Source of the DNA: Micromonospora sp. CPCC 205371
GTDB lineage: Bacteria; Actinomycetota; Actinomycetes; Mycobacteriales; Micromonosporaceae
Direction of reading: 5' to 3'
NCBI RefSeq assembly: GCF_026130045.1
Contig: NZ_JAIBNX010000039.1
Location: 1-49,172, forward strand
DNA length: 49,172 nucleotides
Below the pieces are notes generated by a model. The model was not told the DNA's origin. It worked only from the letters and a program-made list of their open reading frames with translations, and made no database searches. Shown here piece by piece: positions 4,604 to 45,574 of the stretch; the stretch's first letter is position 1, and each line of letters opens with the position of its first letter. The position numbers were made by a program, and so were the translations under genes.

Positions 4604-4624
4604 CCGTGCGCCGCTAAAGTACTG

Positions 4625-4654: not shown

Positions 4655-4718
4655 GTTGTACGGTTGCCCGCGGCGGCGTTCAGCGCTGGCGCATCTGTCC
4701 GACGACGAGGAGTACCTC

Positions 4719-24700: not shown

Positions 24701-25131
24701 AGCCGCTGCCCCACGGCGGCACCGGGCACGGCCTTGACGAGGTCCGCGACGACCTCCTGCTCGCGCTGCACGACGTGCTTCTCGTACGCCTGCACGGCCG
24801 CGCCGCGACCGAGCTTGCGCCCGGTCTCGCCGGGGCTCGTCGCGGCCAGACCCGCGACGCCTCCGCTATATGTGGCAACCGGGTCGTAGTCCAGCTTGAC
24901 GAGGACCGGGATCCGGGTGGACTCGGTGCGGTTGAGCAGGGTCGGGTCCGTCTGCGCCAGCCGGCTGGTGGGCGCCTTGGCGGTGGATACCCGGTCGGCC
25001 GGTCGGAGAACCTGCTCCACGCTGAGATCGCCAGTAGGCGCGGCCGAACCGGGACTGGCCCCGGTCACCATCGCCAGCGGCACGGCAAGAGCGGCCGCGA
25101 AGCCGGCCCGCAGCCACTTCCTTCGATGCAT
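21796..25131 (-). CDS. Secreted S8 subtilisin-like serine protease
   Basis: 1111 residues. Signal peptide 1-31, an I9-type propeptide to about residue 180, then the subtilase domain. The triad is Asp 214 (GVIDTGAWPEH), His 292 (GGHGTHTAS) and Ser 607 (AGTSMSAPHIAG). A protease-associated (PA) domain is inserted at about 445-545, as in large actinomycete and plant subtilases. After the catalytic part come a FnIII-like C-terminal domain (about 690-800) and a further beta-rich tail (PPFVYGGQTYTRIGIDSNGY). ATG 25131 has GGAGG 7 nt upstream. The leader contains two strong hairpins. No clear link to the sugar genes. Confidence 0.95.
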   Translation of the reverse strand: MHRRKWLRAGFAAALAVPLAMVTGASPGSAAPTGDLSVEQVLRPADRVSTAKAPTSRLAQTDPTLLNRTESTRIPVLVKLDYDPVATYSGGVAGLAATSPGETGRKLGRGAAVQAYEKHVVQREQEVVADLVKAVPGAAVGQRLRTVYGGVSAVVPANKVGDLLKVDGVVAVQKDELRQPLTDASAAFIGATSTYGALGGKKNAGAGIIIGVIDTGAWPEHPSFADQGNLNSAPAKADGTPRECDFGDNPLTPQTDVFACNNKLIGGAAFLDTYLANNEGEDYESARDSGGHGTHTASTAAGNVLESAPVFGVDRGPLQGIAPGAWLSVYKALGESGGYSSDLAAAIGQAVLDGVDVINYSISGGSNPFTDPAELAFLDAYAAGVFVSASAGNSGPGVATTDHVSPWVTTVAASTQTREFNSTLTLSSGADTLTLKGASITGGVTAQTPVVLAESLSGYAALCTDPAPAGAFAGKIVACQRGVNSRVVKGYNVLQGGAVGMVLYNPTLADIETDNHWLPTVHLADGTEFKSFMTTHTGVTGSFTAGQKDNGQADVMAAFSSRGPGGFGIKPDITAPGVQILAGNSPTPDAVENGPPGEYFQAIAGTSMSAPHIAGSAVLLKALNPGWSPGQIKSAMMTTAFQDVVKEDLTTPADPFDYGSGRVDLKKAQKPGLTFDESAARMLALGNDPINAVHLNLPSVNAPTMPGRLTTVRTAKNVTGGNQTYRVHVKSPAGSKITVTPSVFTLGAGKSKDLTITISSTKASGQQFGQVVLDPVQANLPTLHLPVAFVPQQGDVKLTSDCAPAQITLLGTAECTITATNETFGDAVADLETTVDQNLKVSGVEGATAAGARRVVKNDVPLAGAKPGVPSLAPGTVAGYLPLADFGVTPTPVGDEDILNFNVPPFVYGGQTYTRIGIDSNGYAVVGGGTSEDNNCCELTQIPDPARPNNILAPFWTDLSGESDQGILATVLSDGVNRWLVVEWQVDVWGTDSNRHFQIWIGLGGEEDIVFAYDPDALPAAPGTQELIVGAENINGSGGEQLPAGTLPTEDLRVTSSPPTAGASVSYVVQVTGVGLGKGVITTEMTATTVPGVTVVASELPIRLRPGGIVQ

Positions 25132-29653: not shown

Positions 29654-30568
29654 ATGACCGTCGTTTCCCGTACCACCTCGACGGCCGCCGGGGGCGGTCG
29701 GACACCGGGCCGAGCCCCGGTCCGCCGGACCAGAGCGCGTCGCGTCAGCATCGCCGGGATCGCGCTGCGGACGCCGTACTGGGTGTTCACCGGCGCGCTA
29801 GCGTTGATTTTCCTGGCGCCGCTCGCCTGGACGGCCGTCGCCTCGGTCTCCCCGCAGGCCGGCACCAACCAGGTCGACGGCTGGGGATTTGGCAACTACG
29901 AGACGCTCGCGCGTTACCAGGCCGGCATCTGGCGCTATCTGTTCAACTCCGCGTTCGTCTCCCTGCTGACGGTCGCGCTGACGCTGGTGATTTCGTTCTT
30001 CGGTGGTTACGCGTTCGCGCGGTTCCGCTTCCCCGGCAAGAACGTCCTGTTCCTGCTCACGCTGGCCATCCTGATGGTCCCGTACGCGACGCTCCTGATC
30101 CCGCTGTATGTCCTGCTCAACGAGGTGGGGCTGCAGAACTCGCTGGTCGGTGTCGCCCTGGTGCTCACGATGTTCCAACTGCCCTTCTCCACCTTCCTGA
30201 TGCGCATTTCGTTCGAGGCGGTGCCGCGTGAGCTCGACGAGGCGGCGACGGTGGATGGATGCTCGTCGTTCGGCGCGCTGTGGCGGGTGCTGCTGCCCGC
30301 CGTCAAGCCGGGCCTCATCACCGTTGGACTGTTTTCGTTTCTCGCGGCGTGGAACGACTTCTTCGCGCCGCTGATCCTCATCAACGACTCCGAGCGCATG
30401 ACACTTCCGCTCGCTGTCTCCAACCTGCGCGGCCAGGTACAGGGTGTCGTCGACTACGGGGCGACCGAAGCGGGTGTGGTCATTCTCGCCCTTCCATGCA
30501 TCGTGCTGTTCCTGTTGCTTCAACGACACTACGTGCGCGGCTTCATGTCGGGCGCGCTGAAGGGATGA
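29654..30568 (+). CDS. Carbohydrate ABC transporter permease, MalG type
   Basis: 304 residues with a basic N-terminal tail of about 40 residues and six helices. The EAA loop reads DEAATVDGCSSFGALWRVLLPAVKP, and the C-terminus YVRGFMSGALKG is typical of MalG-like subunits. GAGGAG precedes the ATG. Its stop overlaps a possible GH127 start (ATGA at 30565). No ATPase gene follows; a shared MsiK-type ATPase elsewhere is presumed. Confidence 0.92.
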   Translation: MTVVSRTTSTAAGGGRTPGRAPVRRTRARRVSIAGIALRTPYWVFTGALALIFLAPLAWTAVASVSPQAGTNQVDGWGFGNYETLARYQAGIWRYLFNSAFVSLLTVALTLVISFFGGYAFARFRFPGKNVLFLLTLAILMVPYATLLIPLYVLLNEVGLQNSLVGVALVLTMFQLPFSTFLMRISFEAVPRELDEAATVDGCSSFGALWRVLLPAVKPGLITVGLFSFLAAWNDFFAPLILINDSERMTLPLAVSNLRGQVQGVVDYGATEAGVVILALPCIVLFLLLQRHYVRGFMSGALKG

Positions 30569-30570: not shown

Positions 30571-32499
30571 ATGAGCCGCACCGCCTCCATGTCCGCGCCC
30601 GTCCTGCCGATCCGCGGCCGGCTCCGGCCGCTCGGGTTGGGCGACGTCCGGATCACGGGCGGCTTCTGGGCCGAGCGGCAGTCGGTCAACGCCGTGGCGA
30701 GCCTCGCGCACATCGAGCACTGGCTGGAACGGGAAGGCTGGATACGCAACTTCGACCTCGCCGCCAGCGGCGACAGCGACATCGCCCGTGCTCGCCGCGG
30801 CCGCGAGTTCTCCGACTCCGAGATTTACAAGCTCCTCGAAGCGATGGCGTGGGAGATCGGCCGCACCAGCGACGAGGGGCTCGAATCGAGGTTTCGTTCC
30901 ATTGTGGGGCGGGTGGCCGCGGCTCAGGAGCCAGACGGTTACCTCAACACCAAGTTCGGGCGCCCGGGGCAGGCGCCGCGCTGGTCCGATCTGGAATGGG
31001 GCCACGAGCTCTACTGCGTCGGTCACCTCCTGCAGGCGGCGGTGGCCCGTGCCCGCACGCGTCCGGGCGCCGACGACGGGCTGGTCGAGGTCGCCCGCCG
31101 GGCCGCCGACAACGTGTGCGAGACGTTCGGACCGGACGGCATCGACGGTCTCTGCGGGCACGCGGGTATCGAGACCGCGCTGGTGGAGTTCGCCCGCGTC
31201 ACCGAAGACGACCGGTACCTGGCGCAGGCCGCCCTCTTCGTCGACCGGAGGGGCCACGGCCGGCTCAGCGACGTGGAGTTCGGCCGGGAGTACTTTCAGG
31301 ACGAGCGTCCGGTCCGGCACGCGACGGTCCTGCGTGGACACGCGGTGCGGGCGAACTACCTCGCCGCCGGCGCCGCCGACGTCGCGGTCGAGCTGAAGGA
31401 CGCCAGTCTGCTCGACGCCGTGCGTACACAGTGGCAGAACACGGTCGCGCGGCGCACGTACGTCACCGGCGGGCAGGGTTCGCGGCACCAGGACGAGGCA
31501 TTCGGCGAAGACTGGGTACTGCCGCCCGACCGCGCCTACTCCGAGACCTGCGCCGGTATCGGCTCGGTGATGCTCGCGTGGCGGCTGCTGCTCGCCGATG
31601 GCGACCCCCGGTACGCCGACCTCATCGAGCGGACGCTGTTCAACGTCGTATCGACCTCGCCATCGGCGGACGGGCGAAGCTTCTTCTACACCAACACCCT
31701 GCACCGCCGCGAGCTCGGCACTCTGCCCGACGCCGACCGGCCGAGCCTGCGCGCGGCGGCCTCGTTGCGCGCGCCGTGGTTCGAGGTGTCCTGCTGCCCG
31801 ACCAACGTCGCACGCACCCTGGCGAGCCTCACCGCGTACGTCGCCACGTCCGACGACGAGGGCCTGCAACTGCACCAGTACATGCCGGGCACCGTCACGC
31901 ACCGCCGCGCCGACGGGCGGGAGCTGCGCGTGAGCGTGGTGACCGGTTACCCCTACGACGGCGAGATCCGGGTCCGTATCGATACTGACGACGCGCAGCC
32001 CTGGTCGCTTTCCTTGCGAGTGCCTGGATGGGCGACCGAGGGCGCGACGCTGACCGTCGCGGGACAGACCCGCCCGGTCGGCCCGGGAGCCGTCACCGAG
32101 CGCCGCACCTGGCGCCGCGGCGACGAGGTGGTGCTGCGCCTGCCGATGGCCCCCCGGTTCACGCACCCGCACACCCGCATCGACGCGGTCCGCGGCTGTG
32201 TCGCGGTCGAGCGCGGCCCGCTGGTGTACGCGCTGGAGTCCGTGGACGTGCCGGGCATCGAGACGGTCGACGAGTTGCGTGTCGACACCAGCCAAGCACC
32301 GCGCCTGGTCGACGGCCAGGTCACGGTGCGCTGCGAACGCGTGCGCACCGATGAGCACGACTGGCCATATTGGACCGGCCCGAACGGGTCCACACCCGTG
32401 GCGGGCGAGGAGTTCGACGAGGTGCCGCTCGTGGAGTACCACGCGTGGGCCAACCGTGGACCCTCGACGATGCGCGTCTGGCTTCCCGCGAAGCCCTGA
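30571..32499 (+). CDS. Intracellular GH127 beta-L-arabinofuranosidase
   Basis: 642 residues of (alpha/alpha)6-barrel type without a signal peptide. The GH127 zinc site is complete: YSETCA (Glu 325, Cys 327) and SCCPTN (Cys 408, Cys 409), matching the E/C/CC set of HypBA1, in which the first Cys of the pair is the nucleophile. It releases beta-L-arabinofuranose from imported arabino-oligosaccharides or hydroxyproline-linked arabinan. Either ATG 30565 (ATGA overlap with the permease stop) or ATG 30571 (AAGGG 6 nt upstream) could be used. It closes the importer operon controlled by the adjacent LacI regulator. Confidence 0.92.
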   Translation: MSRTASMSAPVLPIRGRLRPLGLGDVRITGGFWAERQSVNAVASLAHIEHWLEREGWIRNFDLAASGDSDIARARRGREFSDSEIYKLLEAMAWEIGRTSDEGLESRFRSIVGRVAAAQEPDGYLNTKFGRPGQAPRWSDLEWGHELYCVGHLLQAAVARARTRPGADDGLVEVARRAADNVCETFGPDGIDGLCGHAGIETALVEFARVTEDDRYLAQAALFVDRRGHGRLSDVEFGREYFQDERPVRHATVLRGHAVRANYLAAGAADVAVELKDASLLDAVRTQWQNTVARRTYVTGGQGSRHQDEAFGEDWVLPPDRAYSETCAGIGSVMLAWRLLLADGDPRYADLIERTLFNVVSTSPSADGRSFFYTNTLHRRELGTLPDADRPSLRAAASLRAPWFEVSCCPTNVARTLASLTAYVATSDDEGLQLHQYMPGTVTHRRADGRELRVSVVTGYPYDGEIRVRIDTDDAQPWSLSLRVPGWATEGATLTVAGQTRPVGPGAVTERRTWRRGDEVVLRLPMAPRFTHPHTRIDAVRGCVAVERGPLVYALESVDVPGIETVDELRVDTSQAPRLVDGQVTVRCERVRTDEHDWPYWTGPNGSTPVAGEEFDEVPLVEYHAWANRGPSTMRVWLPAKP

Positions 32500-32566: not shown

Positions 32567-35500
32567 ATGTCCCGTAGACGCGTGAGGCGGGTGCCCCTTT
32601 GGGCGGCCCTGACCGCGCTCATGGTGGGAGGAGCGGTAATCGTGCCGTCCCCGGCCCACGCCGACAGTCCCATACTGCCCGGCAACGAGGGTGACGTCGG
32701 TGTCTACACCGACGGACAGAGCCACGTCATGGACATCGGAGACCCGACCTATAGCAACACCGGCAACGTCGCGGGCCAGCTCAACCCCGGCGTGCCCTTC
32801 ACCGCCGGCAACATGCACCAGTCCATTTTCGACAAGGACCTGGCCGCCGGCGGCACCGACTACTACCTCGACCGCATCCTGGGCGTGTCCGGCACGCTCG
32901 GCTCCCCGGTGCTGATGACCCGCGGCCGCTCGCTCTACATGCGCGGCGCTAGCAACAACAACTTCACCGTCATGGGCTTCGCCGGCAGCGCGTACGTGGG
33001 CGGCCCCAACAACCTCGGCAACCTGTACACCGTGACCGTTCCTGGGCAGACGGTCACCGAGGTCAACGCCGACCGGTTCAACGCACCCAGCCACGCCAAG
33101 AGCCGGTACACGATCGGCGGCACCGGCGTTACCGCCGACCTGACGAAGTTCATCACCTACGACAACGTCGCGGTCACCGCCCTCACCTTCAACAACCCGG
33201 GCGGCTCGGCGGCTACCTTCACCGTGCGTGCCGCCTCGCCGCTGGCCACCCAGCCCGGCGAGGGCCCGGCCGAGCTCACCGGCACCCGCGTCATCACCAG
33301 CGGCTCCAACAACGGGCTCGTCGACACACCGTGGAACACGATCAGGACGCACCTGACCGGCACCGGCTTCACGCGTACCGGAACCAACCTCGACCGCGAG
33401 GTCACCGTGCCGGCCGGCGGCTCGGTGTCGCTGTCGGTTGTCGGCGCGGTCTCCTCGGCCACGCTGCCGGCGACCGTGCCGAGCTACCGCGACTACGCCG
33501 GGCTGTCGCCGGCGGTGGCGGTACGCACCGGCATCACCGCGTTCAACCGCCGGTGGGCACAGGACGTGCCGTACATCGACGTCCCCGACCCAGCGCTGGA
33601 GAAGGCCATCGTCTACCGCTGGTGGGGCGAGCGCTACAACAGCCTCGACGCCAACGCGACCGGCCACGTCTACCAGTACCCGACGACGATCGAGGGAGTG
33701 AACCTCTATCAGAACGCCGTCGCCCTGACCCAGCCGATGCACCTGCAGGACACCAAGTGGCTGCGCACGCCATACCTGCCGTACGGACAGATCCTGAACA
33801 TCGGCGAGCTGTCCGGTTCATCGGCCTTCTTGGACAGTCCCGGCCACACGAGCTGGAACAACCACTACTCGCAGTACATCGGCACGGCCGGGCTCGAGGC
33901 GTACAACGTGCACGGAGGCGGGGCCGACATCGCCCGCAAGTTCGCACACTACTTCGAGGGCGACGGCGTCGGCCAGCTCGAGCACTACGACGGCAACGGC
34001 GACAAGCTCATCGCGTACGACACGAACTTCATGCCGGGCAACGACGCCGACGCGATCACTTTTGGCTTCCCGAAGGCCAACGCCGGAGCGCCCGGCGCGG
34101 AGACGATCGAACGCCCCGAGTCGGCGTACGTGTGGGGCGCGTTCGACGCGGCTCGGCAGCTGTACCAGATCTCCGGCGCCGACCAGTCCAAGGTGGACCA
34201 GATGGCGGCCAGTGCCAACGGCATCCGCGACGCGGTCCTTTCCCGCCTGTGGAGCCCGGACACGCGGATGTTCCTGGCCGGCACCTCGCACGGGGCGACC
34301 AGCGCGGCCAGCTCCAACGGCCGGGCCAACCCGCTGCCCGAGTCGGCCCGTGACCTGATCCCGGCCAAAGAGTCGAACCTGTACGACGTCTACGCCCAGA
34401 ACCTCATCCCGTTCGACCAGTGGCAGACCTACGTCGACGGGTTCCGGTTCCTGACCTACGGCGACAACTTCCCGATCTTCCCGTTCTACACCGCGAACCA
34501 GTACGACCGGACCGCCTACGGGATCGGCGGTTCGAACAACTTCTCCAACATCAACTTCACGGTCCAGTACCGTGGCGTCCGCTCGGCCCTGCGCCACTAC
34601 GACCCCGAGCACAAATACGTCACTCCGGCGTACGCCAAGCGGCTGCTGGACTGGATGGCCTGGAGCGTCTACCCGAACGCGGACATGCGCGTGGCGAACC
34701 AGGCCGAGTACTACTCCGGCTGGAATCCGACCACCAAGACGTACACCCGCAACAACCCGAACCACATCATGCTCGGCAACCAGAACTACATCTTCGTCGA
34801 GGACATGGCGGGCATCCAGCCGCGCTCCGACGACAAGATCGAGCTGTGGCCGATCGCGTTCGGCTACGACCACTTCATGGTCAACAACCTGCGGTACCAC
34901 GGCCAGGACGTCACGATCGTCTGGGACCCGGACGGCAGCAAGTACGGCCTCGGCGCGGGCTACAGCCTGTTCCTCAACGGCGAGAAGAAGGTCAGCACCG
35001 ACAAGCTCGGCAAGCTCACCTACGACCCGAAGACGAACCAGGTCCAGGCGCAGGACGGCCTGAACGTCACGTTCACCGCCTCGACCGGCACGGAATTCCC
35101 GAGCGCGGTCGACACCCCGATCCAGGACGAGCGGGTCGTCGAGTACCTCAAGACGGCCGGCGTCGACCTCACCGAGGACGCGCCGAACCTGGCCTCGGGC
35201 GCCACCCTCAGCTCGTCGTACACCCAGCAGGGCGCGCGGCCCACGCCGTGGCGGCAGTTCCACACGCCCGGGTGGAACGCCTCGACGATGAACTACACGC
35301 CCGGTGCGATCAAGGAGACCGAGCGGCCGGTGTCGCTGGCGGCGGTCACCGACGGCGTCACCGCCAACGAGCCGTACTGGGGCAACTACGGCACCACCGA
35401 CAAGAACGGTTACATCGAGCTGGACCTCGGTTCGGCGAAGGCGTTCGACAACGTGAAGGTGACGTTCGTCAGCGACCGGCAGGCCGGCGGCTACCGCGAA

Positions 35501-37300
35501 CCCGCACGCTGGTGGGTGCAGGTGCCCGATGGCAACGGCGGCTGGAAGGAGATTCCGAACCAGTTCAAGAACCCGACCGTCACGTCGGCGAAGTTCAACG
35601 AAGCGCTGTTCGGCACCGTCACGTCGAGCAAGCTGCGCGTCGCATTCACGAACAACCCGTCCTTCTACACGGCGATCGCCGAGATCCAGGTGTTCAACTC
35701 CGGCCGGGAGGTGCCGCCGGTGTCCAACCAGGCGCCGGCCGTCACCGCCGCGAGGGACGGCTCGGCGGACGGCAACCTGTCCACCAGGCTGGTCGGCACG
35801 GCCACCGACGACGGCATCCCGTACGACAGCGAGCTCGTCCTCGGCTGGGAGACCGTCTCCAAGCCGGAGGGCGCGGGCGTCATCTTCGCCGACTCGAAGG
35901 CGCTGTCGACCCGCGTGACCGGCACGGTCGCCGGTGACTACGTGTTCCGGTTCTTCGCGGACGACGGCGAGAAGCGGAGCGAGGCGACGGTCGCTGTGAC
36001 CCTCACCCCGAAGCAGGTCGTCGCGGAGTTCGGCTCCTCGGCGACGGTCACCACGAGCGGCAGCGCGTCGTGGGAGAACCCACTGCGGGTCAACGAGGCC
36101 ACCACGCCGGCCAGTTCGAGTCCGGGTGCCGGCAACGGCTGGGGCACGTGGGGCCAGACCCAGAACGGCACCACCCCCGAGACGGAGGCGTGGATCCAGT
36201 ACCGGTGGAACGCGCCGGTGCGGCTGTCGTCGACCGACATCTACTGGTACGACGACAACGGCGGCACCCGCCGGCCGAACGCCGACACGTACGTCATCGA
36301 AACCTCGGCCGACGGCGCCACCTGGACCCCGGTCACGCTGACCGGCGGTTCGACGTACGCGGGCGCTCTGAACACCAACGCCTACAACCGCCTCAACTTC
36401 GAACCCATCATGACCAGCCACCTGCGCATCCGCATCTGGGGCGTCATGACCGGCGGCGCGGGCACCGGCGTGCTGCGCTGGCGCGCCAACGGCGAGACCG
36501 TCGACTCGGTGCGCTCGCCGGTGCTGATCCGCACCACGGTAGGACAGGTGCCGACGTTGCCGGCCGAACTCGATGGAGTGTACGCGAGCGGCGCCCGCGG
36601 CAAGATCGGCTTCCGGTGGCAGCAGATCACCCCGGAGATGGTCGCCGAGACCAACGTCGACCCGTTCGTGGTCTACGGCACGAACGACGCCTACGGCCTG
36701 ATCGCCGAGGCACGAATCTATGTGCGGCCCGAGACGGCGCCGGGCGGCATCTCGATCCAGGGCGCCGAGTCGTTCCAGCAGAGCGTCGAGGTGGGCGAGC
36801 TGCCTTACCTACCGGACAAGGTGGAGGTCTCCTACAACGACGGCTCCCGGGACAACCAGGCCATCGGGGTCGACTGGGACTTCGACGAGAGCATCGTCGA
36901 CGTTCCCGGCCGGTACACCATCGTCGGTGATCTGATCCTGCCCGACTACGTCAGCCGGGCCGGCACCACGCAGACCACGCTGACCCTCACCGTGGGCGAG
37001 GGCGCACCGGCGTGGGATGTCACGGTCACGGCACGAACCCAGTGCGTCGGCGGCAAGGCGTACGTCGCCGTCAGCGCCCGCAACGACGAGGACGTGCCGC
37101 TCACCATCGAGCTGGTCACGCCGTACGGGTCGCGGACGGCGCCGGGCGTGGCTCCCGGCAAGTCCGCCTACCAGGCGTTCAACTCGCGCGTCGCGTCGGT
37201 GCCGGCCGGAACCGTGACCGTGAAGGTCTCCGGCACCGTCGGCGAGGAGCCAGTCACCTCGCAGATCAACGCACCCTACGCCGCGATCACCTGTGGTTAG
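32567..37300 (+). CDS. Secreted MGH1-like (alpha/alpha)6 glycosidase, multi-domain
   Basis: 1577 residues. Signal peptide 1-32 (AHA). Residues about 35-860 resemble MGH1/GH63-like six-hairpin glycosidases, with YRWWGERYNSLD, GQILNIGELSG and ELWPIAFGYDHF; I cannot name a CAZy family or the catalytic pair. Then follow a discoidin/CBM32-like module (about 874-1045), a PKD/Ig-like domain, a second discoidin-like module (about 1158-1312), two Ig-like domains, and the C-terminal domain shared with the GH43 and GH127 downstream (1482-1577, RTQC at its start and a terminal Cys). AAGGAGG precedes the ATG. It is the first gene of the surface-enzyme operon. Likely substrate is a pectin side chain or arabinogalactan. 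Confidence 0.8.
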   Translation: MSRRRVRRVPLWAALTALMVGGAVIVPSPAHADSPILPGNEGDVGVYTDGQSHVMDIGDPTYSNTGNVAGQLNPGVPFTAGNMHQSIFDKDLAAGGTDYYLDRILGVSGTLGSPVLMTRGRSLYMRGASNNNFTVMGFAGSAYVGGPNNLGNLYTVTVPGQTVTEVNADRFNAPSHAKSRYTIGGTGVTADLTKFITYDNVAVTALTFNNPGGSAATFTVRAASPLATQPGEGPAELTGTRVITSGSNNGLVDTPWNTIRTHLTGTGFTRTGTNLDREVTVPAGGSVSLSVVGAVSSATLPATVPSYRDYAGLSPAVAVRTGITAFNRRWAQDVPYIDVPDPALEKAIVYRWWGERYNSLDANATGHVYQYPTTIEGVNLYQNAVALTQPMHLQDTKWLRTPYLPYGQILNIGELSGSSAFLDSPGHTSWNNHYSQYIGTAGLEAYNVHGGGADIARKFAHYFEGDGVGQLEHYDGNGDKLIAYDTNFMPGNDADAITFGFPKANAGAPGAETIERPESAYVWGAFDAARQLYQISGADQSKVDQMAASANGIRDAVLSRLWSPDTRMFLAGTSHGATSAASSNGRANPLPESARDLIPAKESNLYDVYAQNLIPFDQWQTYVDGFRFLTYGDNFPIFPFYTANQYDRTAYGIGGSNNFSNINFTVQYRGVRSALRHYDPEHKYVTPAYAKRLLDWMAWSVYPNADMRVANQAEYYSGWNPTTKTYTRNNPNHIMLGNQNYIFVEDMAGIQPRSDDKIELWPIAFGYDHFMVNNLRYHGQDVTIVWDPDGSKYGLGAGYSLFLNGEKKVSTDKLGKLTYDPKTNQVQAQDGLNVTFTASTGTEFPSAVDTPIQDERVVEYLKTAGVDLTEDAPNLASGATLSSSYTQQGARPTPWRQFHTPGWNASTMNYTPGAIKETERPVSLAAVTDGVTANEPYWGNYGTTDKNGYIELDLGSAKAFDNVKVTFVSDRQAGGYREPARWWVQVPDGNGGWKEIPNQFKNPTVTSAKFNEALFGTVTSSKLRVAFTNNPSFYTAIAEIQVFNSGREVPPVSNQAPAVTAARDGSADGNLSTRLVGTATDDGIPYDSELVLGWETVSKPEGAGVIFADSKALSTRVTGTVAGDYVFRFFADDGEKRSEATVAVTLTPKQVVAEFGSSATVTTSGSASWENPLRVNEATTPASSSPGAGNGWGTWGQTQNGTTPETEAWIQYRWNAPVRLSSTDIYWYDDNGGTRRPNADTYVIETSADGATWTPVTLTGGSTYAGALNTNAYNRLNFEPIMTSHLRIRIWGVMTGGAGTGVLRWRANGETVDSVRSPVLIRTTVGQVPTLPAELDGVYASGARGKIGFRWQQITPEMVAETNVDPFVVYGTNDAYGLIAEARIYVRPETAPGGISIQGAESFQQSVEVGELPYLPDKVEVSYNDGSRDNQAIGVDWDFDESIVDVPGRYTIVGDLILPDYVSRAGTTQTTLTLTVGEGAPAWDVTVTARTQCVGGKAYVAVSARNDEDVPLTIELVTPYGSRTAPGVAPGKSAYQAFNSRVASVPAGTVTVKVSGTVGEEPVTSQINAPYAAITCG

Positions 37301-37310
37301 GAGATCGACA

Positions 37311-40300
37311 GTGACAATCTCCGTCAGACGCTTGGCGGCCGCTACGGCGGCCGCCGGGCTCCTCGCCACCGCACTGGTCGGCGCCGGCACCCCGGCCTAC
37401 GCCGCGGACCCGATCACCTTCACCAACACCACCAACCCCATCCTCGGCGACGGCAGCTACTACTCGGCCGACCCAGCACCGCTCGTCGTGCCGGCCGGCG
37501 CACCCGGCAACGCCAGCGACCGGGACGAGCTCTACATCTACACCGGACACGACGAGGCCGGACCGTCCACAAACGACTTCATTATGAACGAGTGGGGCGC
37601 CTTCCGCACCAACGACGTCCAAGCTGGACAGTGGACCCACTACCCGTCGCTCATGCGCCCGGAACAGGTCTTCTCCTGGGCGACACCCGGACGCGCCTAC
37701 GCCGGCCAGGTCGTCCGGGGCGTCGACGGGCGCTACTACTGGTACGTGCCGATCAACGAGCGGGACAGCCCGGCGGCCGACAAGTTCGCGATCGGCGTGG
37801 CCGTCTCGGACAGCCCGACCGGCCCGTGGACCGACCACGCCGGCGGCCCGATCATCTCCCAGCGGGTGCCCACGACCAACACCATCCACAACATCGACCC
37901 GACGATCCTGGTCGAGGGCCAGCGGGTCTTCGTGTGGTGGGGGTCGTTCAGCAACCTGCGGATGCTGGAGTTCCAGGCCGACATGAAGACGCCGGTCGGC
38001 ACCCAGCGCACCGTCACCGGGCTGACCGGCTTCTTCGAGGCGGCCTGGATCTTCAAGCGCGGCGACACCTACTACATGGCGTACGCCGGCAACAACGCCG
38101 GCCCGACCTCGGCGTGCACCCCGGCGAACTACCACGCCTGCATCGCCTACGCGACCGCCGCGTCACCCGAAGGCCCGTGGACCTACCGGGGCACCGTGCT
38201 GCGGCCGGTCTCCTCGACCACGAGCCACCCGGGCATCGTGGAGTTTGGCGGCCAGTGGTACCTGGCCTACCACACCGCTGACGCCGTGGGCGGCGGTCAC
38301 TTCCGCCGGTCGGTGGCGATCGACAAGCTGGAGTGGGACGACACCCAGACGCCGCCGCGGATGAAGCTCGTCACGCCGACGCCCGCCAAGGGCCGCGACC
38401 TCACGCCGCGGGCGAACATCGCACAGGAGGCGACGGTCACCGTCTCCAACGAGCCGGTGCCCACGCAGTACTGGGTCAAGGCGCTCAACGACGAGATCGT
38501 CCGCTCCAACCCGCTGCCGCCCGACATGTGGGGCACCTGGACGGGCAACAACCCGCCACAGCAGTGGGTCCAGTACAGGTGGGACCAGCCGATGCGGATC
38601 ACCGGCTCGCAGATCGAGTTCTGGAACGACCAGCCGCAGGGCACCGGCGTCGGCGTCGCGGCACCGGCGCGCTGGCGCATCCAGTACTGGAACCTCGACA
38701 GTGGACAGTGGGTCGACGTGCCCAACCCGAGCGGATACCCGACCGGCACGCAGGGCTTCCAGGACACCACCTTCGACCCGGTCACCACCACGCAGGTCCG
38801 AGCGACCTTCGACGCCTCCACCAACGGCAGCACATACTCGGCGGTGGCGGTGGAGGAGTGGAAGATATTCGCCGCCCAGCCAACCTCCGTCACGCCGCCG
38901 GCGATGACGGTCGAGGTGGGGGAGCGGGAGCTGCCCGGCACCGTCGGCGTCGCATTCGGCGCCGACACGCTCCAGGTGCCGGTGTACTGGGGCCCGGTCA
39001 CCGCCGACCAGGGCGCGGCGCCCGGCCGGTTCGCGGGACAGGGCACCCTGCTCGGGTACGCCGCCGGCCGCGTGTCCGCGCAGGTGCGGGTGATCTCGCC
39101 GGGTGACACCGAGGGCGATGTGACCCCGCCAGCGCTGACGCTCACACCCACGGGCAGTGCGGGCAGCGCGAGCTGGTTCCGGTCCGCCGTGCGGGTGCGT
39201 GCCGCCGGCGTCGACGACCGGGGCGGCCGGATGACCATCCAGTCCACGGTGGACGGTGGCCAGCCGGTCGTCGCGGCCGAGGTCAGGTACGCGGACGTCG
39301 ACGTATCGGGGGACGGGCAGCACACCGTCACGGCGACCGCGACCGACCGCGCCGGCAACGTCTCCGCGCCGGCGAACCTCACCGTGAAGATCGACGCCAC
39401 CGCGCCGGCCAGCACGGGCACCGTGAACCCCACGACCAGGGCGGTAACGGTGGTCGCGACCGACGCTACCTCCGGGGTCGGCCGCATCGAGTACGCCATC
39501 GGCGCGGGCGCCTGGACCACCTACACCGGCCCGATCGCGGCACCCGACGCCAGCAAGCACACGGTGTCGTTCCGCGCGCTGGACGTGGCCGGAAACCTGG
39601 AGACCGCCAAGAGCGTCACCATCCCGGCGGACATCTCCGGGCCGCTGACCGGCAACATCGGGCCGATCGGCACGCCGACCGCGTCGTACACGGCACCGTG
39701 GAACAGCGTCACCGCGCTCAACGACGGCACCGACCCGCCGAGCCCGAGCCAGGCCCAGATCTGGGGCACCTGGTCCGGCACCCGACCGGAGAGCCAGTGG
39801 ATCCAGTACGACTGGACCCGGCCGGTACGCCTCAACGGAACCGAGCTGAAGTTCTGGCGCGACGCCGACCAGGGCAGCGGCGAAGGCGTCGCCGAACCCG
39901 ACGGGTGGATCTTGCAGTACTGGGACGAGGCGGCGGCCGCCTGGCGTGACGTGCCCGGCGCGTCCGGGTACGGCACGAGCAGCACCGCGTTCAACACCGT
40001 CACCTTCGACCCGGTAACCACACCCCGGGTGCGGGCCACGATCCAGGCCAACGGCAACGGCACCACGTACTCCGCCGTCGCGGTCACCGAGTGGCGGGTC
40101 TTCGCCGACGACCCGGGCACCAACCCGACCCGGGTGCCGGTCACGGTCACCGCCCAGTCGCGGTGTATCGCCGGCAAGGCCTACGTCGCGGTGCAGGCAC
40201 GGAACGACCACGATGGCCGGGTGCGGATCGACATCGAGACCGGCTACGGCGAGCGGTCGTTCCCATCCATCGCGCCGGGCGCCAACGCATACCAGTCGTT

Positions 40301-40421
40301 CGCCACGCGAGCGGCCTCGGTCGTGGCGGGCTCGGTCACCGTCCGCGCCACCGGGACGGTGGGTGGCAAGGACGTGACCACTGTCTACACAGCGGAGTAT
40401 CCCGGCGCGGCTTGCGCCTGA
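37311..40421 (+). CDS. Secreted multi-domain GH43 glycosidase
   Basis: 1036 residues. Signal peptide 1-31 (AYA). The GH43 propeller covers about 35-360 with YYSADPAPLV (Asp 54), HNIDPTILV (Asp 196) and FFEAAWIFKRG (Glu 243) as the likely base, pKa modulator and acid. Two discoidin-like modules (about 368-520 and 780-930, both with the pattern MWGTWTGNNPPQQWVQYRW or similar) flank Ig-like domains. Residues 941-1036 are the shared C-terminal domain, with Cys in QSRC and a Cys at the end. GTG 37311 has AGGAG 7 nt upstream and is 10 nt after the previous stop. Arabinofuranosidase, arabinanase or galactanase activity is possible. Confidence 0.88.
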   Translation: MTISVRRLAAATAAAGLLATALVGAGTPAYAADPITFTNTTNPILGDGSYYSADPAPLVVPAGAPGNASDRDELYIYTGHDEAGPSTNDFIMNEWGAFRTNDVQAGQWTHYPSLMRPEQVFSWATPGRAYAGQVVRGVDGRYYWYVPINERDSPAADKFAIGVAVSDSPTGPWTDHAGGPIISQRVPTTNTIHNIDPTILVEGQRVFVWWGSFSNLRMLEFQADMKTPVGTQRTVTGLTGFFEAAWIFKRGDTYYMAYAGNNAGPTSACTPANYHACIAYATAASPEGPWTYRGTVLRPVSSTTSHPGIVEFGGQWYLAYHTADAVGGGHFRRSVAIDKLEWDDTQTPPRMKLVTPTPAKGRDLTPRANIAQEATVTVSNEPVPTQYWVKALNDEIVRSNPLPPDMWGTWTGNNPPQQWVQYRWDQPMRITGSQIEFWNDQPQGTGVGVAAPARWRIQYWNLDSGQWVDVPNPSGYPTGTQGFQDTTFDPVTTTQVRATFDASTNGSTYSAVAVEEWKIFAAQPTSVTPPAMTVEVGERELPGTVGVAFGADTLQVPVYWGPVTADQGAAPGRFAGQGTLLGYAAGRVSAQVRVISPGDTEGDVTPPALTLTPTGSAGSASWFRSAVRVRAAGVDDRGGRMTIQSTVDGGQPVVAAEVRYADVDVSGDGQHTVTATATDRAGNVSAPANLTVKIDATAPASTGTVNPTTRAVTVVATDATSGVGRIEYAIGAGAWTTYTGPIAAPDASKHTVSFRALDVAGNLETAKSVTIPADISGPLTGNIGPIGTPTASYTAPWNSVTALNDGTDPPSPSQAQIWGTWSGTRPESQWIQYDWTRPVRLNGTELKFWRDADQGSGEGVAEPDGWILQYWDEAAAAWRDVPGASGYGTSSTAFNTVTFDPVTTPRVRATIQANGNGTTYSAVAVTEWRVFADDPGTNPTRVPVTVTAQSRCIAGKAYVAVQARNDHDGRVRIDIETGYGERSFPSIAPGANAYQSFATRAASVVAGSVTVRATGTVGGKDVTTVYTAEYPGAACA

Positions 40422-40452: not shown

Positions 40453-41088
40453 ATGAGCAGAGCGAATCGCAAACGGCTGGCCGCCGCGGCGGCGGGCGCC
40501 ACCGCCGCCCTCGCCGGCCCGCTGGGGCTGCCGGCGGCCCCGGGCGCCGCGCCCGGTGACAGCGACGACGTACGGGTGACGGTCGACATCGAGGAGATCA
40601 ACGAACCGGGTGTGCTCGCCATGTCGATCGCCGGCGACTCCGTCGCGCTGGCCGAGAACGGCTCGACGCTGCTGGTCCGCCAGTTCGTCGGCACCCTGCC
40701 AACGGTGACCGTCACCGACACCCGTACGGCCGACGAGGTGCCCGACGGCGCCGCGTGGGCCGTGCTGGGCAGCGCGACCGACTTCGTCGGCGACGCCGGC
40801 CAGGCACCGATCAGCGCCGGCCACCTCGGCTGGCGGCCGAACCTGATCGACGGCGGCGACACCGGCCTGATCACCGAAGGTGAAGAGGTGGTCACCGTCC
40901 TCGACGACCCGACCCAGCCCGGCAACAACGTGGGCCTGGTCGACCAGGAACTGCTGGTGTCCACTTTCGACTCCGAGGCTGTCGCCGGTGACGCGTACTC
41001 CGTCAACGCCAACCTGTTCCTGCGCGCCCCCGCGGAGGTCGCGGCGGGCACGTACACCTCGACGTTGACCCTTTCCCTGTTCGAATGA
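40453..41088 (+). CDS. WxL-domain-like secreted surface protein
   Basis: 211 residues. An N-terminal signal (MSRANRKRL, then an Ala-rich hydrophobic run to PGAAPGD) leads to one beta-rich domain. AAWAVLGSATDF, HLGWRPNL and the final AGTYTSTLTLSLFE follow the layout of WxL domains, although the last Trp of the proximal motif is Leu here. In Firmicutes WxL domains bind peptidoglycan non-covalently and pair with DUF916 proteins, and the next gene is exactly such a protein. ATG 40453 has GGAG 6 nt upstream. A 14-bp hairpin follows the stop. Confidence 0.75.
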   Translation: MSRANRKRLAAAAAGATAALAGPLGLPAAPGAAPGDSDDVRVTVDIEEINEPGVLAMSIAGDSVALAENGSTLLVRQFVGTLPTVTVTDTRTADEVPDGAAWAVLGSATDFVGDAGQAPISAGHLGWRPNLIDGGDTGLITEGEEVVTVLDDPTQPGNNVGLVDQELLVSTFDSEAVAGDAYSVNANLFLRAPAEVAAGTYTSTLTLSLFE

Positions 41089-41092
41089 CGCA

Positions 41093-41124
41093 TGGTGGGG
41101 GCCGCGTCGCCGCGGCCCCCACCA
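41093..41124 (+). terminator. 14-bp hairpin between WxL and DUF916 genes
   Basis: The arms 41093-41106 and 41111-41124 (GGTGGGGGCCGCG core) pair perfectly around a TCGC loop, 5 nt after the WxL stop and 24 nt before the DUF916 start. It has no T-run. It could be a partial terminator or mRNA stabiliser making WxL protein more abundant than its anchor. Confidence 0.65.
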
Positions 41125-41147
41125 CACCCGGGCACGAAGGGCTCGCC

Positions 41148-42191
41148 ATGTTCCGAAGCTTGCTCGTCACGCTGGGCGCGGTGCTCGCCACCGTGCCGGT
41201 CGCGCCCGCCGCCGCTGCGGCGCCCACCCCGTCGCCGACCAGCCCGACGCTCACGTGGGCGGTGCAGCCGGCCAACCAGCAGGGCCCGGACGGCCGGCGG
41301 TGGATCACGCACACGCTCGATCCTGGGCAGGTGGTTACCGAGCGCCTGGCGGTGCGCAACTTCAGCAACCGGGCCGCGGTGTTCGCCCTCAAGGCCGCCG
41401 ACGGCTACCTCACCGACAACGGGCGCTTCAACATGCTCCCGTCCAACCAGGCGTCGGTCGACGGCGGCACCTGGATTCAGGTCCAGGACAAGGTGAGCGT
41501 CGGGGCCAACGAGACCAAGATCGTGCCGTTCACGATCACGGTGCCGCGGGACGCCAAGCCGGGCGACCATCCGGCTGGCATCGCAGCGACGGTGACCGCC
41601 ACCGGGGGCACGGTCGCCGTCGAGAGCCGGGTCGGATTCCGGGTCATGATGCGGGTCAGCGGTACTGTCACCGCGGCGCTGACCGTCGATGGCCTCACCG
41701 CCACGTACCGGCACTCGTGGAACCCGTTCGCGGCCGGCAGCATCCGGGTTCGGTACAGCACGAAGAACGACGGCAGCGTCGCGGTGACCGGCACCGGCCA
41801 GGTGTCCACCGCCGAACTCGGCGGCCTGAGCGAGAGCGACGCGCGGGCCGAGGTTGACCAGACGCTGCCGGGTGGTAGCCGGCAGGTCGACGTCCGGGTC
41901 ACCGGCGTGTGGGGCCTCGGACCGCTGCGGACCACTGTGGACCTGACGCCCGCCCTCCTCGACGGCGACAAGAGCGGCGCCGAGATCCGGCCGGCCTCGG
42001 CCTCCGTCACGGTGTGGACGCTGCCCTGGCCGCAACTGCTGCTCGCCGCGCTCGTCATGGCCGCCGTCTTCGGCGTCCGGACATTCCGCCGGCGCCGCCG
42101 GCAGCGGCTCGCGCAGCTCCTCGCCCGCGCCCGTGACGAAGGCCGGGCCGAAGCGCGTTCCGACAAGGTCTTAGAAGAAAAGCACTCCTGA
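41148..42191 (+). CDS. DUF916 (WxLIP-like) membrane-anchored protein
   Basis: 347 residues. Signal peptide about 1-26. Residues about 30-150 match DUF916, the peptidoglycan-binding domain of WxL-interacting proteins: LTWAVQPANQQGPDGRRWITHTLDPGQVVTERLAVRNFSN. A second beta domain follows (about 150-290), then one membrane helix (LPWPQLLLAALVMAAVFGV) and a short basic cytoplasmic tail. ATG 41148, with GAAGGG upstream, was chosen over ATG 41085 because the hairpin at 41093 and the signal peptide both favour it. It probably anchors the WxL protein and perhaps the flanking glycosidases at the cell surface (inference). Confidence 0.85.
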   Translation: MFRSLLVTLGAVLATVPVAPAAAAAPTPSPTSPTLTWAVQPANQQGPDGRRWITHTLDPGQVVTERLAVRNFSNRAAVFALKAADGYLTDNGRFNMLPSNQASVDGGTWIQVQDKVSVGANETKIVPFTITVPRDAKPGDHPAGIAATVTATGGTVAVESRVGFRVMMRVSGTVTAALTVDGLTATYRHSWNPFAAGSIRVRYSTKNDGSVAVTGTGQVSTAELGGLSESDARAEVDQTLPGGSRQVDVRVTGVWGLGPLRTTVDLTPALLDGDKSGAEIRPASASVTVWTLPWPQLLLAALVMAAVFGVRTFRRRRRQRLAQLLARARDEGRAEARSDKVLEEKHS

Positions 42192-42214
42192 CTTGCGTGG
42201 AAGGACGACCACCA

Positions 42215-45200
42215 GTGGCTCAATTCGACGAGGTCAAGTTCAACCGGCGCCAGCTCCTCCAAGCGTCCGCCCTCAGCGCTGGCGCGGTCGCGGGCGCCAG
42301 CGGATTCGTGGCGGACTCGGCTCAGGCGGCGCCCGATCCCGGCACAGCAGCCGCCGCCACCGCCGCGGCTGCCCTTGGGCCCGGCGCGACCGCGCCGGTC
42401 CGGCCGTTCGAGCTCAGCGAGGTGCGGCTCGGAAGCGGCCTGCTGCAGGAGAAGCGCGACCGCATGAAGAACTTCCTGCGACAGTACGACGAGCGGCGCT
42501 TCCTCGTCCTGTTCAACAACCAGGCGGGCCGGCCGAACCCGGCGGGCGTCTCCGTTCCGGGCGGCTGGGAGGACGGCGGGCTCCTCAGTGGCCACTGGGC
42601 CGGCCACTACATGACGGCGCTCGCGCAGGCGTACGCCGACCAGGGCGAGGCCGTCTACAAGGACAAGCTCGACTGGATGGTCAGCGAACTCGCCGCGTGC
42701 CAGGCCGCCATCACCGCCCGGATGGGCACTGGAGGGCCCGGTGGTGAAGAGCCGCCCGAACCCCAGATCGACCGGGTGCCTGGCCGCTACGGCAACGCGC
42801 TGCGTCTCAACGGGCCGAGCATGGCGCAGTACGTGACGCTGCCCCAGGAGGCGATCAACCAGCTGACCGACTTCACCATCGCCGCCTGGGTGAACCTCGG
42901 CTCCACGCAGAGCTGGACCCGGCTGTTCGACTTTGGACAGAGCACCACGGTCAACATGTTCCTGACCCCGCGCGCGGGCGTGACCGGCAACGTGCCGCGG
43001 TTCGCCATCACCATCGGGGGGTCCGGCCAGGAGCAGCGGATCAACGGCACCGCCGCGCTGCCGACCAACCAATGGGTGCACCTGGCCGTCACGCTGTCGC
43101 AGACCACCGGCACGCTGTACGTCGACGGCCAGCCGGTCGGCACGAACACGAACATGACACTCAACCCGTCCAGCCTCGGCAACCCGGGCAACCGGTGGAT
43201 CGGGCGGTCGCAGTACGGCGACCCGTTCCTGGACGCGACCATCGACGAGTTCCACATCTTCGACCGGGCACTCAGTCAGCAAGAGCTGCTGTCCATGATG
43301 GACTCGGCGGCCGGCGGTACGGGCGGCGGCAGCATCGCCTGGTACCGCTTCGACGAGGACGGCGGCACAACGCTGCGGGACGCCTCGCCCAACGGCCGCG
43401 ACGGCGGCATCGTGGTGGCGCAGCAGGGCGGTGAGAGCGACTGGGTCCCCACCCACCCCGGCTACGTCGGCGCGATCCCGGAAGACGCGGTGCTGCGGCT
43501 CGGCCCGCCGCGCTGGGCCGTCTACGGCGGCAACGCCGACACCAACACCTGGGCCCCGTGGTACACCCAGCACAAGATCATGCGCGGGCTGCTCGACGCC
43601 TACTACCACACCGGCAACACGCAGGCCCGCGACGTCGTCGTCAAGATGGCCGACTGGGCCCACCTCGCGCTGACCGTCGGCGACAAGAACCACCCCGACT
43701 ACACCGGCCCCATCACGCGCGACAACCTCAACTACATGTGGGACCTCTACATCGCCGGCGAGTTCGGCGGTGCCAACGAGGTGTTTCCCGAGATCTACGC
43801 GCTCACCGGCGAAGCGAAGCACCTGGAGACCGCCAAGTGCTTCGACAACCGGGAGTCGCTCTTCGGCGCCTGCGTCGAAAACCGGGACATCCTCGTGGTC
43901 ACGCCACAGAACAGGCCCGGACGGCGCCGCCCCGAACGGCTGCACGCCAACACGCACGTGCCGCAGTTCGTCGGCTACCTGCGCGTCTTCGAACACACCG
44001 GCGACCAGGAGTACTTCACCGCCGCCAAGAACTTCTTCGGCATGGTGGTTCCACATCGGATGTTCGCGCACGGCGGCGCGGGCGGCAACTACCCGGGCTC
44101 GAACAACAACGTCGAGCTGTTTCAGAACCGGGGCAACATCGCCAACGCGATCGCGCAGGGCGGCGCGGAGACCTGCACGACATACAACCTCATCAAGCTG
44201 GCCCGCAACCTGTTCCTGCACGAGCACGACCCGGTGTACATGGACTACTACGAGCGTGGCCTGCTCAACATGATCACCGGGTCGCGGGCCGACACCGCGA
44301 CCAACAGCGACCCGCAGCTCACCTACTTCCAGCCGCTGACGCCCGGAGCGGCCCGCAGCTACGGCAACACCGGCACCTGCTGCGGCGGCACCGGCCTGGA
44401 GAACCACACCAAGTACCAGGAGACCATCTACCTCAGGTCGGCCGACGGCACGACGCTGTGGGTCAACCTCTACGCGCCCTCGACGCTGACCTGGGCCGAA
44501 AAGGGCTTCACCGTCACACAGCAGACGACCTTCCCGCGCGAAGAGCGCACCAAGCTGACCATCGACGGTAGCGGGCCACTCGACATCAAACTGCGGGTGC
44601 CGGGCTGGGCGCGCAAGGGTTTCTTCGTCACCGTCAACGGAGTCGCGCAAAGCGTCGACGCCCAGCCGGGCACCTACCTGACGCTGAGCCGCACCTGGGC
44701 ACCCGGCGACACCATCGAGGTCCGCATGCCGTTCAGCATCCGCATCGAGCGGGCCCTGGACCGCCCCGACACCCAGGCGATCTTCTGGGGGCCGGTGCTC
44801 CTGCAGATACTGGGAAACCCGGGCAGCGGAACCTTCCGCGAGCTCACCCTCTACCGCCACCTGAAGCGCGACGGCGACTACTCCCGCGCGGCGATCACAC
44901 ACCAGAGCACGACGGCGGCGGGCGACCCGTACTTCACGACGCACGGGCTCACCCTGCGGCCGTACCACATCAGCGACACCCAACCCGTCTCCTCGTACTT
45001 CCGGCGGGTCGAGCCGACGATCGTGTTCGGCTCCATCGACACCGGCGTGCCGAACCGGAAGCGCAACGACGGCCTGCCGAACTACGACGTGCCCGTCACC
45101 GGCATCCCGTCGCCCGGCACCGACGGTCCGACCTTCCTCGATCTGGTCTGGGACCATGCGCCTTTCCCGAACCACGGCGCATTCGTCGCCACCGTCACCC

Positions 45201-45574
45201 AGACCGCCGAGGCGTTCGTCGCCGCGGGCGTCTTCACCGCGGCCGAAAAGGACGTCGTCGTCGCCCGCGCCGCCAGCGCCGCACAGGAGCTGGCACCACC
45301 CGCCACCTGGTCCGTCGAGGTCCAGGCCCGCACGCAGTGCATCGGCGCCAGCGCCTACCTGTCGGTCAGCGTGCGCAACACCGACGACGTGCCGCTCACC
45401 ATCGAGATGGTCACGCCGTACGGCTCGCGGACGGTGGCCGACGTCGCTCCGGGCAAGTCCGCCTACCAGTCCTTCAACACGCGCCGCGCGACCGCGCCGG
45501 CCGGCACCGTGACCGTGACGGTCACCGGCGCGGTCGGCGCGGCGCCGGGGGCCAGCGACATCCGGACACCGTAG
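42215..45574 (+). CDS. Secreted GH127/GH146-type beta-L-arabinofuranosidase with inserted LamG domain
   Basis: 1119 residues. A Tat signal (FNRRQLLQASAL) ends at AQA. The catalytic (alpha/alpha)6 domain starts at about residue 60, is interrupted at about 183-400 by a LamG/concanavalin-like module (QWVHLAVTLSQTTGTLYVDGQPV), and resumes at HPGYVGAIPEDAV. Catalytic and zinc residues are present: GGAETCTTYN (Glu 652, Cys 654) and GTCCGGTG (Cys 722, Cys 723). Residues 1031-1119 are the shared C-terminal domain, but unlike the other two copies it lacks the terminal Cys. The GTG at 42215 has GGAAGGA upstream. It would release arabinose outside the cell; GH127 and GH146 are hard to separate by eye. 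Confidence 0.88.
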   Translation: MAQFDEVKFNRRQLLQASALSAGAVAGASGFVADSAQAAPDPGTAAAATAAAALGPGATAPVRPFELSEVRLGSGLLQEKRDRMKNFLRQYDERRFLVLFNNQAGRPNPAGVSVPGGWEDGGLLSGHWAGHYMTALAQAYADQGEAVYKDKLDWMVSELAACQAAITARMGTGGPGGEEPPEPQIDRVPGRYGNALRLNGPSMAQYVTLPQEAINQLTDFTIAAWVNLGSTQSWTRLFDFGQSTTVNMFLTPRAGVTGNVPRFAITIGGSGQEQRINGTAALPTNQWVHLAVTLSQTTGTLYVDGQPVGTNTNMTLNPSSLGNPGNRWIGRSQYGDPFLDATIDEFHIFDRALSQQELLSMMDSAAGGTGGGSIAWYRFDEDGGTTLRDASPNGRDGGIVVAQQGGESDWVPTHPGYVGAIPEDAVLRLGPPRWAVYGGNADTNTWAPWYTQHKIMRGLLDAYYHTGNTQARDVVVKMADWAHLALTVGDKNHPDYTGPITRDNLNYMWDLYIAGEFGGANEVFPEIYALTGEAKHLETAKCFDNRESLFGACVENRDILVVTPQNRPGRRRPERLHANTHVPQFVGYLRVFEHTGDQEYFTAAKNFFGMVVPHRMFAHGGAGGNYPGSNNNVELFQNRGNIANAIAQGGAETCTTYNLIKLARNLFLHEHDPVYMDYYERGLLNMITGSRADTATNSDPQLTYFQPLTPGAARSYGNTGTCCGGTGLENHTKYQETIYLRSADGTTLWVNLYAPSTLTWAEKGFTVTQQTTFPREERTKLTIDGSGPLDIKLRVPGWARKGFFVTVNGVAQSVDAQPGTYLTLSRTWAPGDTIEVRMPFSIRIERALDRPDTQAIFWGPVLLQILGNPGSGTFRELTLYRHLKRDGDYSRAAITHQSTTAAGDPYFTTHGLTLRPYHISDTQPVSSYFRRVEPTIVFGSIDTGVPNRKRNDGLPNYDVPVTGIPSPGTDGPTFLDLVWDHAPFPNHGAFVATVTQTAEAFVAAGVFTAAEKDVVVARAASAAQELAPPATWSVEVQARTQCIGASAYLSVSVRNTDDVPLTIEMVTPYGSRTVADVAPGKSAYQSFNTRRATAPAGTVTVTVTGAVGAAPGASDIRTP

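Follow-up and report, generated by a model that had tools for sequence, protein, structure and literature searches.

Three secreted enzymes of a Micromonospora operon share a C-terminal domain of about 93 residues, here called the tag, and across the Actinomycetes genomes that we sampled this tag is strongly linked to a gene for a small WxL-like protein. Beyond the WxL-like/WxLIP pair itself, it is the shared tag that accompanies the WxL-like gene from locus to locus. We propose, with a probability of about 0.58, that the operon is an enzyme-display system in which the tag would be held by the WxL-like protein and that protein tethered by WxLIP. The operon lies in a stretch of 49,172 nucleotides from Micromonospora sp. 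CPCC 205371 (the window); this stretch makes up one complete contig of the draft genome, whose size is 9.36 Mb. A tight, same-strand run of five genes encodes a HypBA2-like enzyme, a GH43 enzyme, the small secreted protein, WxLIP and a GH127 enzyme. The first-pass annotation, made from the DNA letters and their translations, had placed the pair as two same-strand ORFs flanked by secreted GH43 and GH127 enzymes, and this arrangement was confirmed. The features of the operon and its upstream flank are as follows.

29654-30568: sugar permease gene, just upstream
30571-32499, plus strand: upstream GH127, untagged, with no obvious leader from ATG 30571 (PF07944; start judged by eye); serves as a contrast case
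32567-37300, plus strand: HypBA2-like secreted enzyme with F5/8 and Big_4 domains, tagged (NF041578 and Pfam domains)
37013-37297, plus strand: C-terminal tag of the HypBA2-like enzyme (alignment and profile)
37293-40421, plus strand: GH43 secreted enzyme with two F5/8-type stretches, tagged (PF04616)
40134-40418, plus strand: C-terminal tag of GH43 (alignment and profile)
40453-41088, plus strand: WxL-like small secreted protein of 211 aa, from ATG 40453 to the stop at 41088 (ORF; probable kin of an actinobacterial WxL subfamily)
41148-42191, plus strand: WxLIP (DUF916) of 347 aa, with two predicted beta domains, a C-terminal membrane helix and a basic tail (PF06030; fold of a homologue)
42021-42107, plus strand: predicted membrane segment (42021-42077) and basic tail (42078-42107) of WxLIP (sequence by eye)
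42197-45574, plus strand: GH127 with a LamG-like domain and a truncated tag (PF07944, PF13385)
45308-45571, plus strand: truncated tag of this GH127, without the last cysteine (alignment, sequence)

The intergenic gaps are 31 bp from GH43 to the WxL-like gene, 59 bp from there to the WxLIP gene and 5 bp from the WxLIP gene to GH127; we took ATG 41148 as the WxLIP start, and a longer ORF from ATG 41085 is also in the ORF list. The HypBA2-like enzyme matched NF041578 at E 3.8e-166, yet its score was 555 bits against a cut-off of 3200. Judged by eye, the leader of GH43 is of the Sec type and that of the GH127 at 42197-45574 of the twin-arginine type. One WxL-like gene and one WxLIP gene were found in the genome, and a profile search recovered three tags only, all in this operon; the tag search of the genome placed none on the window's GH53, its GH35 or the upstream GH127. 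The GH53 and GH35 belong to an entirely untagged carbohydrate cluster at the left end of the window (142-8555), with GH53, permease and solute-binding protein genes on the minus strand and, on the plus strand, a GH35 with an alpha-L-arabinofuranosidase C-terminal domain. A large subtilase with PA and fn3-like domains (21796-25131, minus strand) is likewise untagged.

Neither Pfam (3 of 25 members, best E 0.00099) nor NCBIfam (2 of 25 members, best E 0.00073) gave a convincing match for the tag, which the first-pass annotation had brought up only as a domain for structure prediction. Among the best 79 of 267 related loci, the ORF ended no more than 11 residues from the end of the tag match in 147 of 147 cases, and 141 of these 147 tags had a cysteine near each end; the two cysteines probably form a disulphide. 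An AF2 model of the tag had pLDDT values of 95-98 and seven strands in an Ig-like fold. Fold comparison listed generic Ig-like matches and no specific relative (best Z 9.8, rmsd 2.2, 87 aligned), and the tag profile gave partial matches to designed Ig proteins among PDB sequences, the best at E 2.8e-6. The idea that the tag is a shortened WxL domain was unsupported (hhalign 0.8%). In a phylum-wide set of 119 genomes, with up to 43 candidates scored per genome, the only genome with a tag at E 1e-6 was the window's own. The GH127 of L136 (15161-15439) also ends without the last tag cysteine, as does the window's GH127 tag. Tandem tag-like stretches occur within one ORF in L169 (8446-8949; 29 and 51 bits) and L173 (8236-8751; 54 and 27 bits), which belong to one genus and have no strong WxL-like gene.

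Family membership and the modelled fold of a homologue both identify the protein at 41148-42191 as a WxLIP. In the Pfam scan it matched PF06030 (WxLIP_PGBD) at E 4.2e-7 with 30.5 bits, above the cut-off of 27.3, and it was the single PF06030 match in the 9.36 Mb genome (33 bits). By eye, it has a signal peptide and one C-terminal hydrophobic segment followed by RTFRRRRRQR. An AF2 model of a homologue that is 72% identical to the window protein (from alignment A12) contained two beta domains, with pLDDT mostly 80-96. Its top structural matches among solved chains, across both domains, were the Enterococcus faecium WxLIPs 9i25, titled as WxLIP bound to a long WxL protein, and 9i1y, WxLIP alone (Z 13.8 with 220 aligned and 13.6 with 224 aligned). 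Identity in these alignments was about 12%, and the rmsd of 10.4 in each means that the domains match but are arranged differently relative to each other. The next structural rows, at Z about 10-11, were mostly single Ig-like domains and pilus chaperones. The WxLIP profile ranked the same two entries best among PDB sequences (E 0.0033 and 0.0036; next 0.1). No Pfam family covered the second beta domain (DUF3324/HBD) among matches to E 1. The DUF916 identity proposed in the first-pass annotation is supported by the over-threshold PF06030 match and the agreement of the homologue model with 9i25 and 9i1y, and that model also predicts the two-domain topology.

The other half of the pair is more distant from its namesake. 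Its N-terminus is a signal peptide by eye, and it had no Pfam or NCBIfam match up to E 1. PF13731, the WxL family, matched nothing in the window genome even at E 10 and none of the 18 members of the window protein's subfamily, A8. The first Trp-x-Leu motif is replaced by W-x-V, and there is no Trp near the C-terminal TLTLSLF strand. In a sister subfamily of Actinomycetes, A9, 6 of 10 members did match PF13731 (best E 3.2e-5), one of them displayed at 22.2 bits, under the 25-bit cut-off, and profile alignment joined A8 to A9 with a probability of 99.7% and an E of 1.6e-26. Given the missing Pfam and PF13731 matches, the name WxL-like holds only in the sense of distant homology: judged by its sequence relatives, the window protein is probably related to WxL proteins through the sister subfamily but falls outside the WxL family in its defined sense. 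The WxL-like identity first assigned survives as kinship through A9; in profile searches the DUF916 protein passes and its partner fails the WxL model. Against PDB sequences, the best matches of the two subfamily profiles were at E 0.25 (A8) and 0.027 (A9), neither of them a WxL chain. When the WxL-like protein was modelled by AF2 in read-through pseudo-fusions with the tag (pTM 0.39) or with WxLIP (pTM 0.45), neither gave a confident arrangement; the tag and WxLIP folded well in their respective models, but the WxL-like part had no confident fold in either. None of the 80 WxL-like proteins of the best 79 of 267 related loci has a cysteine in its last 170 residues. A WxLIP gene lies no more than 300 bp downstream of at least 26 of 55 A9 genes and at least 18 of 37 genes of the window subfamily, both lower bounds because the number of WxLIP candidates scored in each genome was small. 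In genomes G110, G171 and G239, two WxL-like genes are followed by a WxLIP gene without a tag, a Firmicutes-like layout in Actinomycetes.

To relate the tag to the WxL-like gene, we used several samples. A scan of named genomes with a single peptide pattern yielded 267 confirmed relatives, of which the 79 best distinct loci were kept. These loci contain 80 WxL-like genes, and a tag ended 33-173 bp upstream of all 80, although these loci are close relatives (Micromonosporaceae and Streptosporangiaceae) and the count overstates their independence. Among 296 Actinomycetes genomes, 19, spanning six families, had a strong WxL-like gene and 29 had a tag, and all 19 fell among the 29 (Fisher 5e-23, with kinship ignored). 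A same-strand tag ended no more than 500 bp upstream of 27 of the 37 strong WxL-like genes, compared with 0 of 77 genes of the sister subfamily, and a tag lay within 20 kb of 34 of 37 compared with 2 of 77; the chance expectation for an upstream tag was 0.016 of the 37 genes. One of the families, with six genomes, differs: there the pair is not behind a tag and instead lies 5.4-5.6 kb before the nearest one. The line between strong and weak WxL-like genes, E 1e-20, was drawn post hoc in a gap from 5.5e-25 to 2.6e-18, and the 37 strong rows include contig-edge fragments. At most 10 WxL-like, 17 tag and 6 WxLIP candidates were scored per genome, so that misses are possible, above all for WxLIP. 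The genome co-occurrence table is built on 92 of 114 WxL-like rows and 57 WxLIP rows, and the 500-bp and 20-kb counts add the other 22 WxL-like rows.

Further samples gave a similar picture. In a separate set of 41 genomes from the window's family, all five with a WxL-like match above 200 bits had a tag 38-64 bp upstream; two further genomes lacked a tag, and their WxL-like matches scored 79-81 bits. In a plasmid collection, a DNA search for the pair and a protein search for the tag returned the same 4 of 72,556 records; a protein search for WxLIP only reached 11. The arrangement goes beyond chance, since homologous pairs adjoin secreted enzymes in three other species: Clavibacter phaseoli, Cellulosimicrobium protaetiae and Nonomuraea gerenzanensis have at least three, four and one tagged proteins around the pair, respectively. 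Further enzymes encoded in these stretches include GH53, GH3 and RICIN proteins of Cellulosimicrobium and a Clavibacter GH43 cut by the end of the stretch. Co-occurrence with secreted enzymes in related genomes, as the first-pass annotation had expected, was conserved in this neighbourhood survey. That annotation had made its reading depend on a structural match to WxL/DUF916 folds and on co-occurrence with secreted glycosidases; the former was found for WxLIP, and the neighbourhood agreed with the latter.

Tags also occur alone. Even when every candidate was scored, ten of the 29 tag genomes lacked a strong WxL-like gene. G016 is one of the ten, but its strong WxLIP gene begins 178 bp from a contig end, and the WxL-like gene expected just before it may therefore sit in an assembly gap, which leaves nine. 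Three of the eight tag genomes in the 41-genome sample, with weaker tags (64-75 bits), had no WxL-like match at 1e-20, and even where the system is present, lone tags were seen (L182, L186, L187 and L192). A rule that every tag genome holds a WxL-like gene is therefore unsupported in both samples (10 of 29 and 3 of 8). Such lone tags favour a different account, in which the tag does nothing more than bind carbohydrate or act as a spacer, like many ordinary domains, and the WxL-like/WxLIP pair forms a wall protein of its own, linked to the enzymes only by co-regulation; the tag's common Ig-like fold and the lack of a tag/WxL-like contact in the AF2 models also speak for it. Co-regulation, however, leaves the position of the tag directly before the WxL-like gene unexplained (80 of 80 and 27 of 37, against 0 of 77 in the sister subfamily), and sugar binding is ill-suited to a nuclease, a phosphatase or a peptidase, all of which carry the tag. 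We consider this account unlikely.

The range of tagged proteins bears on what an enzyme-display system would carry. Among the best 79 of 267 related loci, 147 tagged ORFs formed 14 clusters, 11 of which were seen directly upstream of a WxL-like gene; clustering was by single linkage at 35% identity over half of the shorter sequence, and one cluster can therefore mix related architectures. Pfam scans covered one member of each of the 14 clusters (the longest or only member in 12) and the Nonomuraea protein. By Pfam, the glycan-type cargo comprises GH43, GH127 and proteins of HypBA2-like make-up. Other cargo includes a nuclease/5'-nucleotidase, an M14 carboxypeptidase, an M6-type peptidase and a purple acid phosphatase, as well as DUF6351 tannase-like, LVIVD and ThuA proteins, the last with galactose-oxidase-like or dehydrogenase domains. 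In most cases these non-glycosidase proteins also have an adjacent WxL-like gene. A subtilase is tagged too, and its cluster is one of the three not found directly upstream of a WxL-like gene. A role for the tag as a substrate-specific sugar-binding module is unlikely, given that the cargo includes nuclease, phosphatase and peptidases.

The first-pass annotation had inferred a cellulosome-like assembly dedicated to arabinan- and galactan-degrading enzymes. The tagged proteins of the window (HypBA2-like, GH43 and GH127) fit this idea, as do the four largest cargo clusters, whose representatives are of glycosidase type. However, the nuclease, phosphatase, peptidase, tannase-like and oxidase-like cargo shows that the system lacks such specificity for arabinan or galactan; moreover, the window's own GH53, GH35 and upstream GH127 are untagged. 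Pfam scans of the operon proteins and cargo representatives listed no cohesin or dockerin match. We hold a dedicated arabinan/galactan assembly to be very improbable.

We also compared the loci with one another. A WxLIP gene follows 59 of the 80 WxL-like genes; it is absent from 20 with enough sequence, and one locus is cut by a contig end. Eight of the ten strains with a locus that lacks WxLIP hold another locus that has it. The WxL-like proteins of one strain that come from different cargo loci had a median identity of 0.92 (43 pairs), compared with 0.83 between strains for the same cargo (904 pairs) and 0.82 for different cargo (2213 pairs). The tags showed the opposite trend in the same three comparisons (0.50, 0.67 and 0.57). 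Four strains had 4-6 loci each, which gave 37 pairs. In 18 of these the third-codon identity of the WxL-like gene was 0.80-0.96, against 0.57-0.81 for the tag region and 0.51-0.83 for the sequence immediately downstream. In the other 19 pairs, which involve L122, L124, L125, L094 or most Micromonospora endophytica loci, the third-codon identity of the WxL-like gene was 0.66-0.76, and between strains it was 0.62-0.83 for same-cargo pairs. Within strains of Micromonospora and relatives (L077-L125), WxL-like DNA was up to 98% identical with both flanks different. These sequence patterns suggest that at some of the loci the WxL-like partner gene may have undergone gene conversion, which would also fit the fragments of WxL-like genes that G087 has at contig ends.

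A partner gene of this kind might instead encode a chaperone-like secretion or folding partner, with the tagged enzyme then released and not permanently anchored. In its favour, each cargo often has a partner gene of its own, and the first domain of WxLIP has the pilus chaperones FimC and Caf1M as structural neighbours at Z about 10; mutual stabilisation of WxLIP and WxL was proposed by Hassan 2023 (PMC10599100), as far as the available part of that paper goes. On the other side, the tags served by the homogenised WxL-like proteins often share no more than about 50% identity, and published WxL domains bind the wall according to the sections at hand of PMC9772566 and PMC4449606. We judge a transient, chaperone-like role quite unlikely.

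We return to the enzyme-display reading and set out how it might work. The sequences themselves show the gene pairing, the C-terminal position of the tag, cargo that changes next to a constant junction, the identity of WxLIP and the likeness of the partner within strains. Secreted enzymes would carry the Ig-like tag at their extreme C-terminus, and the WxL-like protein may hold it, as the pairing of the genes suggests; docking of the tag on the WxL-like protein is thus a putative step. WxLIP would tether the WxL-like protein at the wall and membrane, by analogy with the solved WxLIP-WxL complex of Firmicutes and in keeping with its predicted membrane helix. In this scheme the tag could stand in for the C-terminal WxL domain of the large WxL proteins in Firmicutes Csc clusters, and one WxLIP could serve several tag/WxL-like loci of a strain. 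The cargo of the window (HypBA2-like, GH43 and GH127) may keep the release of arabinose-containing sugars near the sugar permease encoded upstream, with plant glycoproteins or arabinan as candidate substrates. In a fuller version, a protein-display code of Actinomycetes, a portable tag would sort enzymes to the surface, so that a secreted enzyme would be bound to the cell once it acquires the tag; the WxL-like protein would be the common receptor, its copies beside different cargo would stay interchangeable by gene conversion, and WxLIP could be an anchor for multiple loci of a strain. We put this version forward tentatively, at somewhat under even odds.

Like the cellulosome with its dockerin and cohesin, the operon combines a module shared by many enzymes with a partner on another protein; it differs in that the partner is encoded beside the cargo, the cargo extends beyond polysaccharides and no cohesin or dockerin match was listed for the operon proteins and cargo representatives. 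The A9 clusters of two WxL genes and a WxLIP gene (G110, G171 and G239) encode proteins homologous to the WxL-like and WxLIP proteins of the window, but A9 genes are unlike the window type in their surroundings: none of the 77 has a tag in the 500 bp upstream, and 75 of them have none within 20 kb. With the Csc/WxL clusters of Firmicutes, as described in the parts of the literature at hand, the operon shares a WxLIP with a membrane helix, a small WxL-related protein, clustered genes and a multidomain partner with a common C-terminal domain. In contrast to those clusters, no large WxL protein was found here, and the enzymes themselves are the multidomain partners, with an unrelated Ig-like tag; the small protein lacks the second Trp motif, and the hosts are Actinomycetes, not Firmicutes.

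In the portion of Siezen 2006 (PMC1534035) available to us, Csc surface complexes were proposed for the use of plant polysaccharides and likened to cellulosomes, and the large WxL protein of the Firmicutes complex carries a common C-terminal domain. Excerpts of Hassan 2022 (PMC9772566) assign over 91% of 938 known WxL sequences to Firmicutes, and those of Hassan 2023 (PMC10599100) place WxL proteins almost entirely in Lactobacillales and Bacillales. PMC4449606, a paper that contains both DUF916 and Actinobacteria, treats lactobacilli in its accessible text, and that of PMC12537917 reports DUF916 genes near another protein type, Ang-2. Among titles and abstract openings in open-licence PMC, we found no report of an actinobacterial WxL/WxLIP pair with enzymes, or of the tag.

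Together, these data suggest that some soil actinomycetes may use an unrecognised way to keep secreted enzymes on the cell surface. If true, the enzyme-display reading would explain the surface retention of secreted enzymes in some actinomycetes, give a function to a domain absent from Pfam and NCBIfam, and extend the WxL/WxLIP system to Actinomycetes with the enzymes themselves as cargo. The putative tag-receptor pair would be testable with two purified proteins, and the loci would offer a clear case of a partner gene that seems to undergo homogenisation between loci even as the counterpart carried by its cargo diverges.
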